This document shows, piece by piece, positions 34,301 through 40,712 of a stretch of DNA of 64,000 nucleotides. The stretch spans positions 124,001-188,000 of the forward strand of contig CAIZNI010000056.1 in assembly GCA_903934295.1 (NCBI GenBank), written 5' to 3'. The position numbers were made by a program, and so were the translations under genes. How positions within the stretch are numbered: position 1 is the first letter of the stretch; each line of letters opens with the position of its first letter. Source of the DNA: an uncultured beta proteobacterium (GTDB taxonomy: Bacteria; Pseudomonadota; Gammaproteobacteria; Burkholderiales; Burkholderiaceae_E). The notes under the pieces are model-generated. The model saw nothing but the letters and a program-made list of their open reading frames with translations, did no database searches and was not told where the DNA came from.

Positions 34301-34335
34301 CGGCTTTCGGTGGTTGCTGAGCGGGGGGAGTCTAC

Positions 34336-34719
34336 ATGGCCGGGTTCACGAAGGTGGTTCTGTCAACCGAGGCCGATGGCCGCGCGCGGTTTCGCGACGA
34401 GCCGTTGGCGCTCGATGAAGGCAGCCCGCAGTCGCGCCTGTCGCGGCTGTTTGCCAGCGGCGGATACCAGTTGCGCGAGAGCCCGGTCGGGTTTCGCAGC
34501 GATTTTCATTGCACCACCAGCCCGCAATGGGTGTTCATCCTCCAGGGCGCGATGGAGATCGGCCTGCAGGGCGGCGTGAGCCGGGTATTCGGTCCCGGCC
34601 AGCATTTCTTCTCGGCCGATCTGCTGCCCGCGGGCGCTGTCTTCGACCCCGGTGTGCACGGGCACTGGAGCCGTCAGGTCGGCGATCAGCCGCTGGTCAC
34701 CCTGTTCGTGCGCGCCTGA
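34336..34719 (+). CDS. Cupin-like protein
   Basis: FHCTTSPQWVFILQGAMEIGLQGGVSRVFGPGQHFFSADLLPAG. Confidence 0.7.
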   Translation: MAGFTKVVLSTEADGRARFRDEPLALDEGSPQSRLSRLFASGGYQLRESPVGFRSDFHCTTSPQWVFILQGAMEIGLQGGVSRVFGPGQHFFSADLLPAGAVFDPGVHGHWSRQVGDQPLVTLFVRA

Positions 34720-34771
34720 ATCGCCGGGGGCTGAGCCCGGATCGGGCGCCGACTGGCGTACAGTCTCGCCC

Positions 34772-35623
34772 ATGCTCGCATACCGACACGGCTTTCACGC
34801 CGGCAATCACGGCGACGTGCTCAAGCACCTGGTGCTGATCCAGGTGATGGCGCACATGAGCGCCAAGGACAAGCCGTACCGCTACATCGACACCCATGCC
34901 GGTGCTGGCGCCTATCTGCTCGCCGATCGTTTCGCCCAGACCACCGGCGAGTACGAGCACGGCATCGCGCCGCTCTGGGCGCGTCAGGGCGAGGCGGCGA
35001 TGCCGGCCGCGGTGGCGGAGTACCTGGCGCTGATCCGCCAGTTCAACCCGCAGGGCGATCTTGCCCAGTATCCCGGTTCGCCCGCGATCGCGCAGGCGAT
35101 GCTGCGCCCGCAGGACCAGATGCGGCTGTTCGAACTCCACACCAGCGATCACCGGCTGCTGCAGGCGCATTTCGGCCGATCACCCAATACCCAGGTGATG
35201 CTGGCCGATGGCTTCGAAGCGCTCAAGAGCCAGGTGCCGCCGTCGACCCGGCGCGCGCTGGTGCTGATGGATCCGTCCTATGAGCTGGTGGGCGACTACG
35301 GCAAGGTGGTGGCCAGCGTGCGCGATGCGGTCACCCGGTTCGCCGAGGGCGTCTACCTGATCTGGTATCCGCTGGTGCGGCGTTCCGAGTCGACGCACCT
35401 GCCGCGCCGGCTCGAGCGCCTCGCTCCCAAGGGCTGGCTGCACGCCAGCCTGACGCTGGGCGAGCCGGACAAGGACGGCTTCGGGATGTATGGCAGCGGG
35501 GTGTTCGTGATCAATCCGCCCTTCACCCTGCACGCCACGCTGCTGCAAACGCTGCCGTGGCTGCGCGACGCGCTGGCCACCTCGGGGCGCGCGCGCTACC
35601 TGCTGGAACACCGCAGCGTCTAG
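34772..35623 (+). CDS. rlmJ: 23S rRNA (adenine(2030)-N(6))-methyltransferase RlmJ
   Basis: MLAYRHGFHAGNHGDVLKHLVLIQVM and DTHAGAGAYLL; LMDPSYE catalytic motif. Confidence 0.96.
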   Translation: MLAYRHGFHAGNHGDVLKHLVLIQVMAHMSAKDKPYRYIDTHAGAGAYLLADRFAQTTGEYEHGIAPLWARQGEAAMPAAVAEYLALIRQFNPQGDLAQYPGSPAIAQAMLRPQDQMRLFELHTSDHRLLQAHFGRSPNTQVMLADGFEALKSQVPPSTRRALVLMDPSYELVGDYGKVVASVRDAVTRFAEGVYLIWYPLVRRSESTHLPRRLERLAPKGWLHASLTLGEPDKDGFGMYGSGVFVINPPFTLHATLLQTLPWLRDALATSGRARYLLEHRSV

Positions 35624-36384
35624 GCGGGAGCCGCTTCCGGGTCGCCCGGGCGGTGCAGGTACAGGTCGCGCGACGGCACCAGATGCTCGCCGCACAGTCG
35701 CACCAGTTGCGCGCGGTCGCCGGCCGCCAGGGCGTCCAGCATCGCGTGGTGCTGGTCGCGCGACCGCTCCAGGTAACCGGGCCAGGCAAAGGCGCTTGAG
35801 CGGATCGGGTGGGTGCGGCGCGCGTATTCGCCGATCGCCTCGGTCAGGGCGGCGTTGCCGCACAGCGCGAACAGGCCCTCGTGAAAGCGCAGGTTGCTCT
35901 GGAAGGCCGCCCCGAGGTCGCCGCAGGCCACGGCCGCGTCATGCTCGTCCTGCAGTCGGCGCAGGGGCGCCAGCGCCGCCGTCGGCTGGGGCAGTGGCAT
36001 CCGGGCCGCGGCACTGCACTCGAGCAGGGTGCGGATCTCGTAGAGCTCGGCCACCTGGGCGGGCAGGAAGGATTTCACCGAGGTGCCCACGTGCGGCGTG
36101 TGCTCGGCCAGACCGCGCGCCTGCAGTTGCGCCAACACCCGGCGGGCGACATGCCGCTTGAGTGCGAAGCGGGCGCACAGGTCGTCCTCGACCAGGCGCT
36201 CGCGCGGCTGCAGTCGGCCCAGCACGATGTCCTGTTCGAGCAGCCCGGCCACCACCTGCACCCGGTCGCCGACATGGCGGTCGCGCAGTTCACCGCTGGG
36301 GCGGTGTTCGTGCGCTGCCGGCGCGGATGCCGATGGGGAAGGGGCGGCGGCGAGGCGGCGGCGCGGGCGGGCTCGGGGTATCAT
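35620..36384 (-). CDS. GntR family (FCD) transcriptional regulator
   Basis: wHTH (LQPRERLVEDDLCARFALKRHVARRVLAQLQARGLAE) plus FCD domain; alternative start at 36399. Confidence 0.87.
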   Translation of the reverse strand: MIPRARPRRRLAAAPSPSASAPAAHEHRPSGELRDRHVGDRVQVVAGLLEQDIVLGRLQPRERLVEDDLCARFALKRHVARRVLAQLQARGLAEHTPHVGTSVKSFLPAQVAELYEIRTLLECSAAARMPLPQPTAALAPLRRLQDEHDAAVACGDLGAAFQSNLRFHEGLFALCGNAALTEAIGEYARRTHPIRSSAFAWPGYLERSRDQHHAMLDALAAGDRAQLVRLCGEHLVPSRDLYLHRPGDPEAAPA

Positions 36385-36403
36385 CGGCTGGATTATCAAT
36401 AAT

Positions 36404-36431
36404 GTCGACCGGTCGGGTCGACGTTTTTTTT
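36404..36431 (+). terminator. Terminator-like hairpin with T8 in leader of IlvD/Edd-type gene
   Basis: GTCGACC-GGTCG-GGTCGAC then G and TTTTTTTT (36424-36431); 7-bp perfect stem, 33 nt before the ATG at 36464. Confidence 0.55.
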
Positions 36432-36463
36432 CAGGGGCAGGGCATGTTCAGCGGCCATCCGAG

Positions 36464-38206
36464 ATGAGCGGCAAACCGGCGCGTGGTGGTCTTCGCAAGG
36501 GATTGACCAGCTACGGCGACGAGGGGTTCTCGCTGTTTCTGCGCAAGGCCTTCATCAAGGGCGCAGGCTACACCGACGACGCGCTGGAGCGCCCTATCGT
36601 GGGCGTGGTCAATACCGGCAGCGCCTACAACCCCTGCCACGGCAATGCGCCGCAGCTGATCGAGGCGGTCAAGCGCGGTGTCCTGCTGGCGGGTGGATTG
36701 CCGATGGAGTTTCCCACGATCTCGGTCCACGAGAGCTTCGCGCAGCCCACCAGCATGTACCTGCGCAACCTGATGTCGATCGATACCGAGGAAATGATCC
36801 GCGCCCAGCCGATGGACGCGGTGGTGCTGATCGGCGGCTGCGACAAGACGGTGCCGGCACAGCTGATGGGCGCGGCTTCCGCGGGTCTGCCGGCCATCGC
36901 GCTGGTGACCGGCGCGATGCTCACCGGCTCGCATCGCGGGACCCGGGTCGGCGCGTGCACCGACTGCCGGCGCTATTGGGCCGATTTCCGTGCCGACGCG
37001 ATCGACGAGGCCGAAATCGCCGCGGTCAACAACCAGCTGGTGCCCACGGTGGGCACCTGCTCGGTGATGGGCACCGCAAGCACCATGGCCTGCATCGCCG
37101 AGGCGCTGGGCATCATGATGCCGGGTGGCGCCAGCGCGCCCGCCGTCAGCGCCGACCGGATCCGCATCGCCGAGCAGACCGGCGCCCAGGCGGTCGCGAT
37201 GATCGCCGCCGATCTCACGCCGGCCCGGATCCTGACCCCTGACGCCTTCGAGAATGCGTTCCGGGTGCTGCTGGCGATCGGCGGGTCGACCAATGCGCTG
37301 ATCCACCTCACCGCGGTGGCCGGGCGGCTGGGCATCGCGGTCGATCTCGACCGGCTCGACCGTTTCGGGCGCGAGACGCCGGTGCTGGTCGATCTCAAGC
37401 CGTCCGGGCAACACTACATGGAGGACCTGCACGCCGCCGGCGGCCTGGCCACCGTGCTGCGCGAACTGCGCCCGCTGCTGCACCTGGATGCCCTGACCGT
37501 CACCGGTCGCTCGCTGGGCGAGGAGCTCGAGCGCGCCCCCGCGCCTTTCGCCCAGTCGGTGGTGCGGCCCTTCGCCGATCCGATCTACGCCGAGGGCGGG
37601 CTCGCGGTGCTGCGCGGCAACCTGGCGCCGGGTGGGGCGATCATCAAGCAGTCGGCCGCGTCGGCGGCGCTGATGGAGCATGAGGGGCGGGCGGTGGTGT
37701 TCGACGACCTTCCCGACCTGGTCGCCCGTCTGGACAGCCCCGATCTCGATGTCGGGCCGCACGACATCCTGGTGCTCAAGCACATCGGGCCGGTTGGCGC
37801 GCCCGGCATGCCCGAGGCGGGCCTGATCCCGATTCCGCGCCAGCTCGCGCGACAGGGCGTCAAGGACATGGTCCGGATTTCCGACGGCCGCATGAGCGGC
37901 ACCGCCGCCGGCACCATCGTGCTGCATGTCACGCCCGAGTCGGCGATCGGCGGGCCGCTCGCGCTGGTGCGCTCGGGCGACCGGATCCGACTGAGCGTGG
38001 CGGCCCGCCGCATCGACCTGCTGGTCGACGAGGCGACCCTCGCCGCCCGGCGCGCCGAGCTGCCGGCGCCACCCGATGCGTCGGCCGAACGCGGCTATCG
38101 CCGCCTGTTCCTGCAAACCGTCACCCAGGCCGATCAGGGGTGCGATTTCGATTTTCTGCGTGCCGGGCGCTTCGATCACCGCGTGCCGCGCGGCGACGAG
38201 GCGTGA
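36464..38206 (+). CDS. IlvD/Edd family dehydratase (probably sugar-acid dehydratase)
   Basis: VGVVNTGSAYNPCHGNAPQLIEAVKRGV; GGCDKTVPAQLMGAASAGLPAI; GTCSVMGTASTMACIAEALG; VRISDGRMSGTAAGTIVLHVTPES. Confidence 0.93.
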   Translation: MSGKPARGGLRKGLTSYGDEGFSLFLRKAFIKGAGYTDDALERPIVGVVNTGSAYNPCHGNAPQLIEAVKRGVLLAGGLPMEFPTISVHESFAQPTSMYLRNLMSIDTEEMIRAQPMDAVVLIGGCDKTVPAQLMGAASAGLPAIALVTGAMLTGSHRGTRVGACTDCRRYWADFRADAIDEAEIAAVNNQLVPTVGTCSVMGTASTMACIAEALGIMMPGGASAPAVSADRIRIAEQTGAQAVAMIAADLTPARILTPDAFENAFRVLLAIGGSTNALIHLTAVAGRLGIAVDLDRLDRFGRETPVLVDLKPSGQHYMEDLHAAGGLATVLRELRPLLHLDALTVTGRSLGEELERAPAPFAQSVVRPFADPIYAEGGLAVLRGNLAPGGAIIKQSAASAALMEHEGRAVVFDDLPDLVARLDSPDLDVGPHDILVLKHIGPVGAPGMPEAGLIPIPRQLARQGVKDMVRISDGRMSGTAAGTIVLHVTPESAIGGPLALVRSGDRIRLSVAARRIDLLVDEATLAARRAELPAPPDASAERGYRRLFLQTVTQADQGCDFDFLRAGRFDHRVPRGDEA

Positions 38207-38226
38207 CCGCCAGCCATAGCCCAAGG

Positions 38227-38946
38227 ATGCCCATGACCACCCCCCGCATGCTCGACGCCGAGGCGATCGCCACCCTGCGCGACGTCTCCACCGCCACCCT
38301 CACCACCGTCCTGCTCAAGAAGGGCCTGCGCAATGTCTGGCTGCGCGGCACCCGACCGCTCGCCCCCGGCCAGCCGCGGCTGGTGGGGCCGGCATTCACC
38401 CTGCGTTTCGTGCCGGCGCGCGAGGATCTGGCCACCCCCGAATCCTGGGCGTCGCCGGTCTCGACCCGCGCCGCGATCGAGGCGATGCCGCCCGGCTGCA
38501 TCGCGGTGGTCGATGCGATGGGCGTGGCCGATGCCGGCATCTTCGGTGACATCCTGTGCGCCCGGATGCGCAAGCGCGGCGTGGCCGGTCTGGTCACCGA
38601 CGGGGTGGTTCGCGACGTGGCCGGTGTGTTCGGAACCGGTCTGCCGGTCTGGTGCGCCGGGGTGGCCGCGCCGCCCTCGGTGGCCGGGCTCACCTTCGTC
38701 GGCTGGCAGCAACCGATCGCCTGCGGCGGCGTCGCGGTGTTCCCCGACGATGTGGTGGTGGTCGACCAGGACGGTGCGGTGCTGATCCCCGCGGCGCTGC
38801 TGGGCGAGGTGCTGGCGCACGCGCCCGAGCAGGAGCGCTTCGAGGCCTGGATCATGACCGAGATCGAGGCTGGCGTGCCTTTGCCTGGGCTCTACCCGCC
38901 CGATGCGCCGACCCGCGCGCGGTATGAGGCGAGCCGCAAGGCCTGA
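38227..38946 (+). CDS. RraA-like / HMG-CHA-aldolase family protein
   Basis: GDILCARMRKRGVAGLVTDGVVRDV and CGGVAVFPDDVVVVDQDGAVLIPAAL, characteristic of the RraA/MenG-like fold. Confidence 0.9.
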   Translation: MPMTTPRMLDAEAIATLRDVSTATLTTVLLKKGLRNVWLRGTRPLAPGQPRLVGPAFTLRFVPAREDLATPESWASPVSTRAAIEAMPPGCIAVVDAMGVADAGIFGDILCARMRKRGVAGLVTDGVVRDVAGVFGTGLPVWCAGVAAPPSVAGLTFVGWQQPIACGGVAVFPDDVVVVDQDGAVLIPAALLGEVLAHAPEQERFEAWIMTEIEAGVPLPGLYPPDAPTRARYEASRKA

Positions 38947-38950
38947 GCGG

Positions 38951-39793
38951 ATGCAGCCGATTGCCTGCGCCGGGCCGGCCGGACCGGTGCGGCTTGTCAC
39001 CGGCGAGGCGCGCCCCGGATCGCGCATCGTCTGGCGCTGCGCGGGCGCCGGTGCGCCGCTGCTGCTCCTTCATGGCGGCATGGGCAGCTGGAACCACTGG
39101 GTGCGCAATGTCGACGCGCTGGCGGCGAGCTACCGGGTGCTCGTGCCCGACATGCCCGGCTATGGTGAGTCCGATCTGCCGGACGGAGCCGACGACCCGC
39201 CCGCGCTTGCTCGGGCATTGCGCGACGGTCTCGATGAACTGCTCGCGCCCGATGAGCGCCTGCGCATCGCCGCCTTTTCATTCGGCGGCACGGTCGCCGG
39301 TCAACTGCTGCTGGCGATGCCGGATCGCATCGCCGGGCTGGCGCTGGTGGGCTCGGCCGGCCTGGGCGTGGTGCGTCCCGGCACCGTGCCGATGGAGCGC
39401 TGGAAGGGCGTCGACGACCCCGCGGCGCTGGCCGGCGTGCACCGGCGCAACCTGGCGCGCCTGATGATCTCGCGCGCCGACCGGGTCGACGAACAGGCGG
39501 TTCGGCTGCACGCGTCCAACCTGGCGCGCGGCCGGGTGCGCAGCGTCGCGCATTCGCTGGGCGACAGCCTGCGTCAGGCGCTGGCGGCCGTGCCGGTGCC
39601 GCTGGCCGGCATCTGGGGCGAACTCGACCCGACCACGCCGCGCGGACCGCAGGAGGTCGGTGAGATCTTCCAGGCGCTGCGCGGTGACCAGGCCCGCCTC
39701 ACGGTGCTGCCCGACGCCGGCCACTGGGTGCAGTACGAGGCCAGCGACCGCTTCAATCCGCTGCTGCTCGAGGCGTTGCGCGCGTTCGCCTGA
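38951..39793 (+). CDS. Alpha/beta hydrolase
   Basis: LLLLHGGMGSWNHWVRNVDALAASYRVLVPDMPGYGESD; AFSFGGTVAGQL nucleophile elbow; DAGHWVQYE. Confidence 0.92.
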   Translation: MQPIACAGPAGPVRLVTGEARPGSRIVWRCAGAGAPLLLLHGGMGSWNHWVRNVDALAASYRVLVPDMPGYGESDLPDGADDPPALARALRDGLDELLAPDERLRIAAFSFGGTVAGQLLLAMPDRIAGLALVGSAGLGVVRPGTVPMERWKGVDDPAALAGVHRRNLARLMISRADRVDEQAVRLHASNLARGRVRSVAHSLGDSLRQALAAVPVPLAGIWGELDPTTPRGPQEVGEIFQALRGDQARLTVLPDAGHWVQYEASDRFNPLLLEALRAFA

Positions 39794-40712
39794 CCCGGCG
39801 AATCCGCGCGGGCGCCTCGAAAAGGCTGCGCGAGAGCACCGCCAGCGCCTCGAATTCGGCGACCCGCGCGCTGGTCTCGCGGGCCACGATCGCGATCGTG
39901 CGGCGCGGCGCCGGGGCGGCCAGCGGCCGGGCGATGAGCGAACTGCCCTCCAGCAAACCGGCCTTCAGGGCCATCTCGGGCACCAGCGCGATCCCCAGGC
40001 CCTCCTCGACCATCTGCACCAGCGTGGGCAGGCTGGTGGCCTCCAGGCCGTTCGGGTTGGCGCGTTCGGCCAGCCGGCAGCCCTCGAGGGTATGGGTGCG
40101 CAGGCAGTGGCCCTCCTCGAGCAGCAGCAGGCGCTGCGAATCGAGCGCTTCGATCCGCAGGCTGGCGCGGCGCAGTGCCGGGTCGCCGGCCGGCGCCACC
40201 AGCCAGAGTTCATCGACCAGCACCTCTCGCACCTGCAGGCCGGCGGTGTCGCCGGGCAGCGCGATCAGCGCGAAATCGAGGCTGCCGTCGCGAACCCGGG
40301 CCAGCAGCGGCTCGGTCTGCTCCTCGCGCAGCGCCGCGCGCAGGCTGGCGTGCCGGTCGCGCAGCGCGCGCACCAGTCGCGGCAGCAGGTAGGGTGCGAT
40401 GGTCGGGATGGCGCCCAGCCGGACCAGCCCGGTCATCGGGCGCGCCGCCTGCGCCACCTGATCGCACAGGTCGCGGGCCATCGCCAGCAGGTCGCGGGCG
40501 CGTCGCACCGCATCGGCGCCGATGTCGGTGAGCGCGACCCGCTGGCGCGTGCGCTCGACCAGTTGCGCGCCCAGCGTGCGCTCGAGCTCCTGGAGACCGC
40601 CCGAGAGGGTGGACTGGGTGACGAAGCAGGCCTGCGCCGCCTCGGTGAAGTTGCGCGTGTCGGCCAGCGCGACCAGATAGGTCAGCTGTCGAAGCGAGGG
40701 CAGTGCGGTCAT
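39753..40712 (-). CDS. oxyR: LysR family hydrogen-peroxide-type regulator, OxyR-like
   Basis: N-terminal LysR HTH; LLLEEGHCLRTHTLEGC with two Cys 9 residues apart as in the OxyR redox pair; divergent to erythrin. Confidence 0.83.
   Translation of the reverse strand: MTALPSLRQLTYLVALADTRNFTEAAQACFVTQSTLSGGLQELERTLGAQLVERTRQRVALTDIGADAVRRARDLLAMARDLCDQVAQAARPMTGLVRLGAIPTIAPYLLPRLVRALRDRHASLRAALREEQTEPLLARVRDGSLDFALIALPGDTAGLQVREVLVDELWLVAPAGDPALRRASLRIEALDSQRLLLLEEGHCLRTHTLEGCRLAERANPNGLEATSLPTLVQMVEEGLGIALVPEMALKAGLLEGSSLIARPLAAPAPRRTIAIVARETSARVAEFEALAVLSRSLFEAPARIRRVRRTRATPRAAAD

Follow-up and report, generated by a model that had tools for sequence, protein, structure and literature searches.

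In the window (the whole 64 kb stretch of DNA that was analyzed), a gene for a GntR regulator of the FCD subfamily and a gene for an IlvD/Edd-family dehydratase lie on opposite strands on either side of a short region that contains a candidate operator, a perfect hairpin, and a run of eight T residues (Table 1). The dehydratase gene is on the plus strand, and behind it come genes for an RraA/aldolase-like protein and an alpha/beta hydrolase. In Paraburkholderia, homologous dehydratase and gntR genes are found beside genes for D-glycerate dehydrogenase and for members of the dihydrodipicolinate-synthase and mandelate-racemase families, and these neighbors support a putative sugar-acid role for the operon. 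The adjoining dehydratase gene is probably controlled by gntR. The stop codon of a predicted upstream ORF, MFSGHPR, overlaps the dehydratase ATG (ATGA), which itself has a weak ribosome-binding site; translation of the two may be coupled.

Table 1. Features of the gntR/dehydratase locus, in window coordinates
Feature	Position	Strand	Basis or remark
rlmJ, rRNA methyltransferase family; stop 35623, with the actual start probably near 34769	34652–35623	+	convergent with gntR
gntR, FCD subfamily; ATG 36384–36382; longest ORF begins at TTG 36399	35620–36384	-	PF00392, PF07729
Candidate GntR-FCD operator ATTATCAATAAT, consensus ATTRTYRAYAAT	36392–36403		one match per locus in 12 GntR-relative loci
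Predicted gntR promoter TCGACC-18-GATAAT, start about 36385	36392–36421	-	consensus match 9/12; inference
Hairpin	36404–36422, extendable to 36401–36425	+	sequence, folding
T8 tract (A8 on the minus strand)	36424–36431	+	sequence
Predicted 7-codon upstream ORF MFSGHPR, AGGGG in front	36444–36467	+	sequence; inference
IlvD/Edd-family dehydratase	36464–38206	+	PF00920, PF24877, NF004784
RraA/aldolase-like gene (rraA)	38209–38946	+	right behind rlmJ in the two nearest congeners

Direct reading of the DNA gives two arms, GTCGACC (36404–36410) and GGTCGAC (36416–36422), a GGTCG loop (36411–36415), a single G at 36423, and then T8, in the order ATTATCAATAAT-GTCGACC-GGTCG-GGTCGAC-G-TTTTTTTT-CAGGGGCAGGGCATG..., with the end of T8 33 nt from the dehydratase ATG at 36464. 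Both this arrangement and the gntR start at 36384 on the minus strand agree with a first-pass annotation of the locus. The stem consists of seven perfect pairs and can be lengthened to ten (36401–36425), with folding energies from -11.6 to about -15 kcal/mol, the latter for the 10-pair form. As in intrinsic (Rho-independent) terminators, the stem is stable, perfect and G+C-rich, closes a 5-nt loop, is preceded by an A-rich stretch, and is followed by U8; the intervening G can pair in the 10-pair stem. Since the genome holds a single copy of the perfect GTCGACC palindrome, a repeat element is ruled out.

The T8 tract is the sole run of A or T of at least 7 nt in the window, and the 44 T8 places listed for the 4.62 Mb genome collapse to about 35 distinct runs. 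When 23 runs elsewhere in the genome were sampled, a strong stem abutted the 5′ side in 10, compared with 1 of the 23 on the mirror side and 4.8% of shuffles, and the hairpin-bearing runs mostly lay 40–100 nt behind a same-strand stop codon in a rough gene call. The excess of 5′ over mirror stems and the spacing from stop codons indicate that T8 runs in this genome obey terminator syntax and that intrinsic termination of this kind operates in the organism. The window element shares this syntax with about half of the T8 runs, and letter shuffles of the 40 nt preceding its T8 gave an equally good abutting stem in 27 of 5,000 cases. The usual intrinsic terminator follows a stop codon at short distance, whereas this element is flanked by an operator and a start codon; it also differs in that one G parts the 7-pair stem from T8. 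Its d'Aubenton-type score is about 10 with the extended stem and -8 with the 7-pair stem alone, whereas 11 of 13 other terminators in the genome score 26–49 (the remaining two score 1 and 6); it is thus a weaker terminator than most others of the genome. A generic terminator scan over 14 kb returned four sites versus 4.4 in shuffles, no excess, so the significance of the element rests on T8 and the perfect stem, not on the scan. Hairpin and T8 together are a real, terminator-like, lineage-specific element, ordinary in kind though unusually placed, and are unlikely to have arisen by pure chance. The first-pass annotation was right to call the hairpin terminator-like.

Stem and T-run were found in 0 of 15 leaders of homologues, a set that includes no close gntR ortholog and so does not extend to short-range conservation; among the leaders compared, the hairpin occurs in this species only. 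Upstream regions of other dehydratase orthologs, those with no neighboring gntR, contained nothing resembling it, and comparison of the leader across about 400 genomes of the order yielded short chance matches alone and no counterpart. An Rfam search of the leader gave no match up to E = 1. A close gntR ortholog was sought in 74 genomes of the family and elsewhere and was not found, a class-wide sample of 369 genomes contained no additional close GntR, and a scan of genome contigs with this GntR returned distant members only. When the stem was forbidden in folding, both arms remained unpaired and no alternative partner appeared.

These results bear on the suggestion, made in the first-pass annotation, that the hairpin is a conditional attenuator whose leader could be aligned in relatives and searched for an antiterminator. 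The element does resemble leader attenuators and 5′ UTR terminators of catabolic operons, in that a hairpin precedes the first gene of an operon that is probably inducible. However, it differs from leader attenuators in having no antiterminator stem, no leader peptide ahead of the hairpin, and no conservation. These comparisons give no support to a conserved conditional attenuator: the stem and T-run are missing from all 15 leaders, the arms have no antiterminator pairing, Rfam holds no match, and the order offers no counterpart among about 400 genomes. A riboswitch was rejected on the same grounds, absent conservation, alternative fold, and Rfam match.

A second suggestion, that the palindrome is a GntR operator, fared better for its neighbor than for itself. 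The palindrome was absent from the leaders of orthologous-GntR loci and was rejected as the operator; the AT-rich dyad ATTATCAATAAT, which directly adjoins the left arm of the hairpin, was alone common to them. Relatives of the GntR with 40–54% identity occur near a 61–80% identical dehydratase in many loci, and in each of 12 such loci (7–12.5 kb) the consensus ATTRTYRAYAAT has exactly one match, usually placed before the dehydratase, gntR, or the operon. At a thirteenth locus (L085) the match lies just upstream, in L135; two further loci (L086 and L087) carry sites with one mismatch, and in L072 and L088 the consensus was looked for in the locus and was absent. Among loci with more distant GntR proteins (L073–L076), presence of the operator varies. 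One of these, whose GntR is only 31% identical, has two operator-like dyads about 100 nt apart (L074:2543 and L074:2640). The whole window genome contains two sites that fit the consensus, one of which is the dyad at this locus. The other is ATTATCGACAAT at G000:C3:38071-38082 (L137). A literature search for an operator of this FCD-GntR group found none described. The dyad is a clear candidate operator of GntR, and this is a firmer result than any reading of the hairpin. FCD-type GntR repressors with short AT-rich dyad operators offer a parallel: gntR adjoins the dehydratase, and the candidate operator overlaps promoter elements.

The first-pass annotation had held that a plus-strand terminator here would have no upstream plus-strand gene to end, but it overlooked rlmJ, whose stop lies at 35623, with gntR antisense between rlmJ and the hairpin. 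No other plus-strand terminator-like site was found between that stop and 36401. In the two nearest congeners (G002 and G006), a small ORF, rlmJ, and rraA follow one another, then lysR in G006; the 3′ end of rlmJ overlaps the 5′ end of rraA, and gntR and the dehydratase gene are missing between them. Given this overlap, transcription plausibly ran from rlmJ into rraA in the older arrangement. The hairpin is ruled out as the original terminator of rlmJ, since in G002 and G006 no such element stands behind rlmJ, which overlaps rraA. Alignable blocks correspond to 34335–35611, 38267–38931, and 39847–40436 of the window, which has in addition gntR and the dehydratase gene between rlmJ and rraA (about 2.6 kb; 35611–38267) and the alpha/beta hydrolase gene between rraA and lysR (38931–39847). 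The hydrolase gene is missing in congener L140. Because the dehydratase is closer to plasmid copies from Caballeronia and Paraburkholderia (80% identity) than to congeneric copies (73–76%), the comparison favors, though not with certainty, gain of the gntR/dehydratase pair here over loss in the congeners, and the two genes are likely an acquired cassette.

Where transcription is predicted to start determines how these observations can be read. Only two sigma-70-like matches occur in 14 kb (0.8 expected), both of them at this site on the minus strand. On the plus strand, the match to the promoter consensus is weak, with two placements equal at 7/12. One takes the right half of the operator, AATAAT, as the -10 and predicts a start at about 36410, so that the operon RNA would lack the left arm and could not form the hairpin. 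The other takes TATCAT (36379–36384) as the -10 and predicts a start at about 36391, placing the whole hairpin inside the operon's own leader. Each has parallels: in L091 and L092, where the operator also leads the dehydratase, the best promoter match (9/12) draws its -10 from an operator half (AATAAT/GATAAT), and in L068 and L069 a TATGAT (with TTGCGN-18) lies just before the operator, in the same place as TATCAT.

The explanation we favor, albeit tentatively, is that the hairpin and U8 act as an intrinsic terminator and thereby insulate the dehydratase operon against transcription running on from rlmJ. Plus-strand RNA arriving from rlmJ, antisense through gntR, would be stopped at this lineage-specific element, which lies immediately behind the candidate GntR operator and leads the gntR/dehydratase cassette, and the dehydratase-rraA operon would thereby be left to its own GntR-controlled promoter. 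With AATAAT as the -10, transcription would begin at about 36410, at the end of the left arm; the operon's own RNA would be unable to fold the hairpin, and read-through RNA alone would be terminated. Consistent with such insulation are the terminator syntax of T8 runs in the genome and their usual spacing behind stop codons, the stretch from rlmJ to the hairpin with no other candidate terminator, the rlmJ/rraA overlap in congeners with neither gntR nor the dehydratase gene, and the -10 placement of the L091/L092 type, which would put the start inside the hairpin. Several points weigh against it. The plus-strand promoter is weak, and with the tied start at about 36391 the hairpin would belong to the leader of the operon itself. 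The end of rlmJ is about 780 nt away, and the antisense RNA could be stopped earlier by Rho. The terminator score is modest, and the hairpin is not conserved, hence no selection is demonstrable. That the insulation is selective, the 5′ arm overlapping the promoter and start of the protected gene such that upstream RNA folds and terminates while the operon's own RNA escapes, strikes us as improbable.

If transcription instead starts near 36391, some RNA polymerase may stop at about 36431 in the operon's own leader, so that expression would be lowered to a fixed degree or, less probably, in a conditional way. We consider this doubtful: the agreement of TATCAT with TATGAT in L068 and L069 and the position of the hairpin wholly within the leader speak for it, as does the precedent of premature intrinsic termination in 5′ UTRs, such as that of E. 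coli ispU at a 6-bp stem followed by eight U residues (PMC7815308), but the element is conserved in none of the 15 homologous leaders, has no stem-breaking alternative pairing, and belongs to no known leader RNA family. Moreover, the predicted 7-codon ORF lies behind the terminator and so cannot govern it through ribosome stalling as in classical attenuation. A similarly doubtful alternative is that the site is minus-strand promoter DNA, with A8 (36431–36424) serving as an UP element, an A-tract bound by the alpha subunit of RNA polymerase, TCGACC...GATAAT as the gntR promoter core, and the plus-strand hairpin incidental; the gntR mRNA would be nearly leaderless and repressed by GntR at the operator. 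The scarcity of sigma-70-like matches outside this site favors this view. Relative to the predicted gntR start at 36385, A8 would occupy positions of about -46 to -39, where the promoter-proximal UP subsite is located. At rrnB P1, adenines -41 to -43 of this subsite matter (PMC4390567). Yet the -35 matches at only 4 of 6 positions, and a perfect 7-pair stem abutting T8 is not expected of an UP element and would be coincidence. Finally, the element may have no present role and be either a leftover terminator from a rearrangement junction or a product of chance. Its confinement to this species, the departure of about 2.6 kb from the nearest congeners, and the hint of recent acquisition in the dehydratase's kinship to plasmid copies fit such an origin. 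Against this, a functional terminator placed between promoter and gene would carry a cost, and the position of the element exactly at the edge of the operator suggests that it is integrated with the promoter. We consider a relic or chance unlikely. Insulation, termination in the operon's own leader, and UP-element function are not wholly exclusive, and the choice among these three depends on where the predicted transcription starts fall.

Our analysis provides a widespread FCD-GntR/dehydratase module with a clear candidate operator. It also illustrates a way in which a catabolic cassette, once inserted, might be protected from the transcription of its new neighbor.
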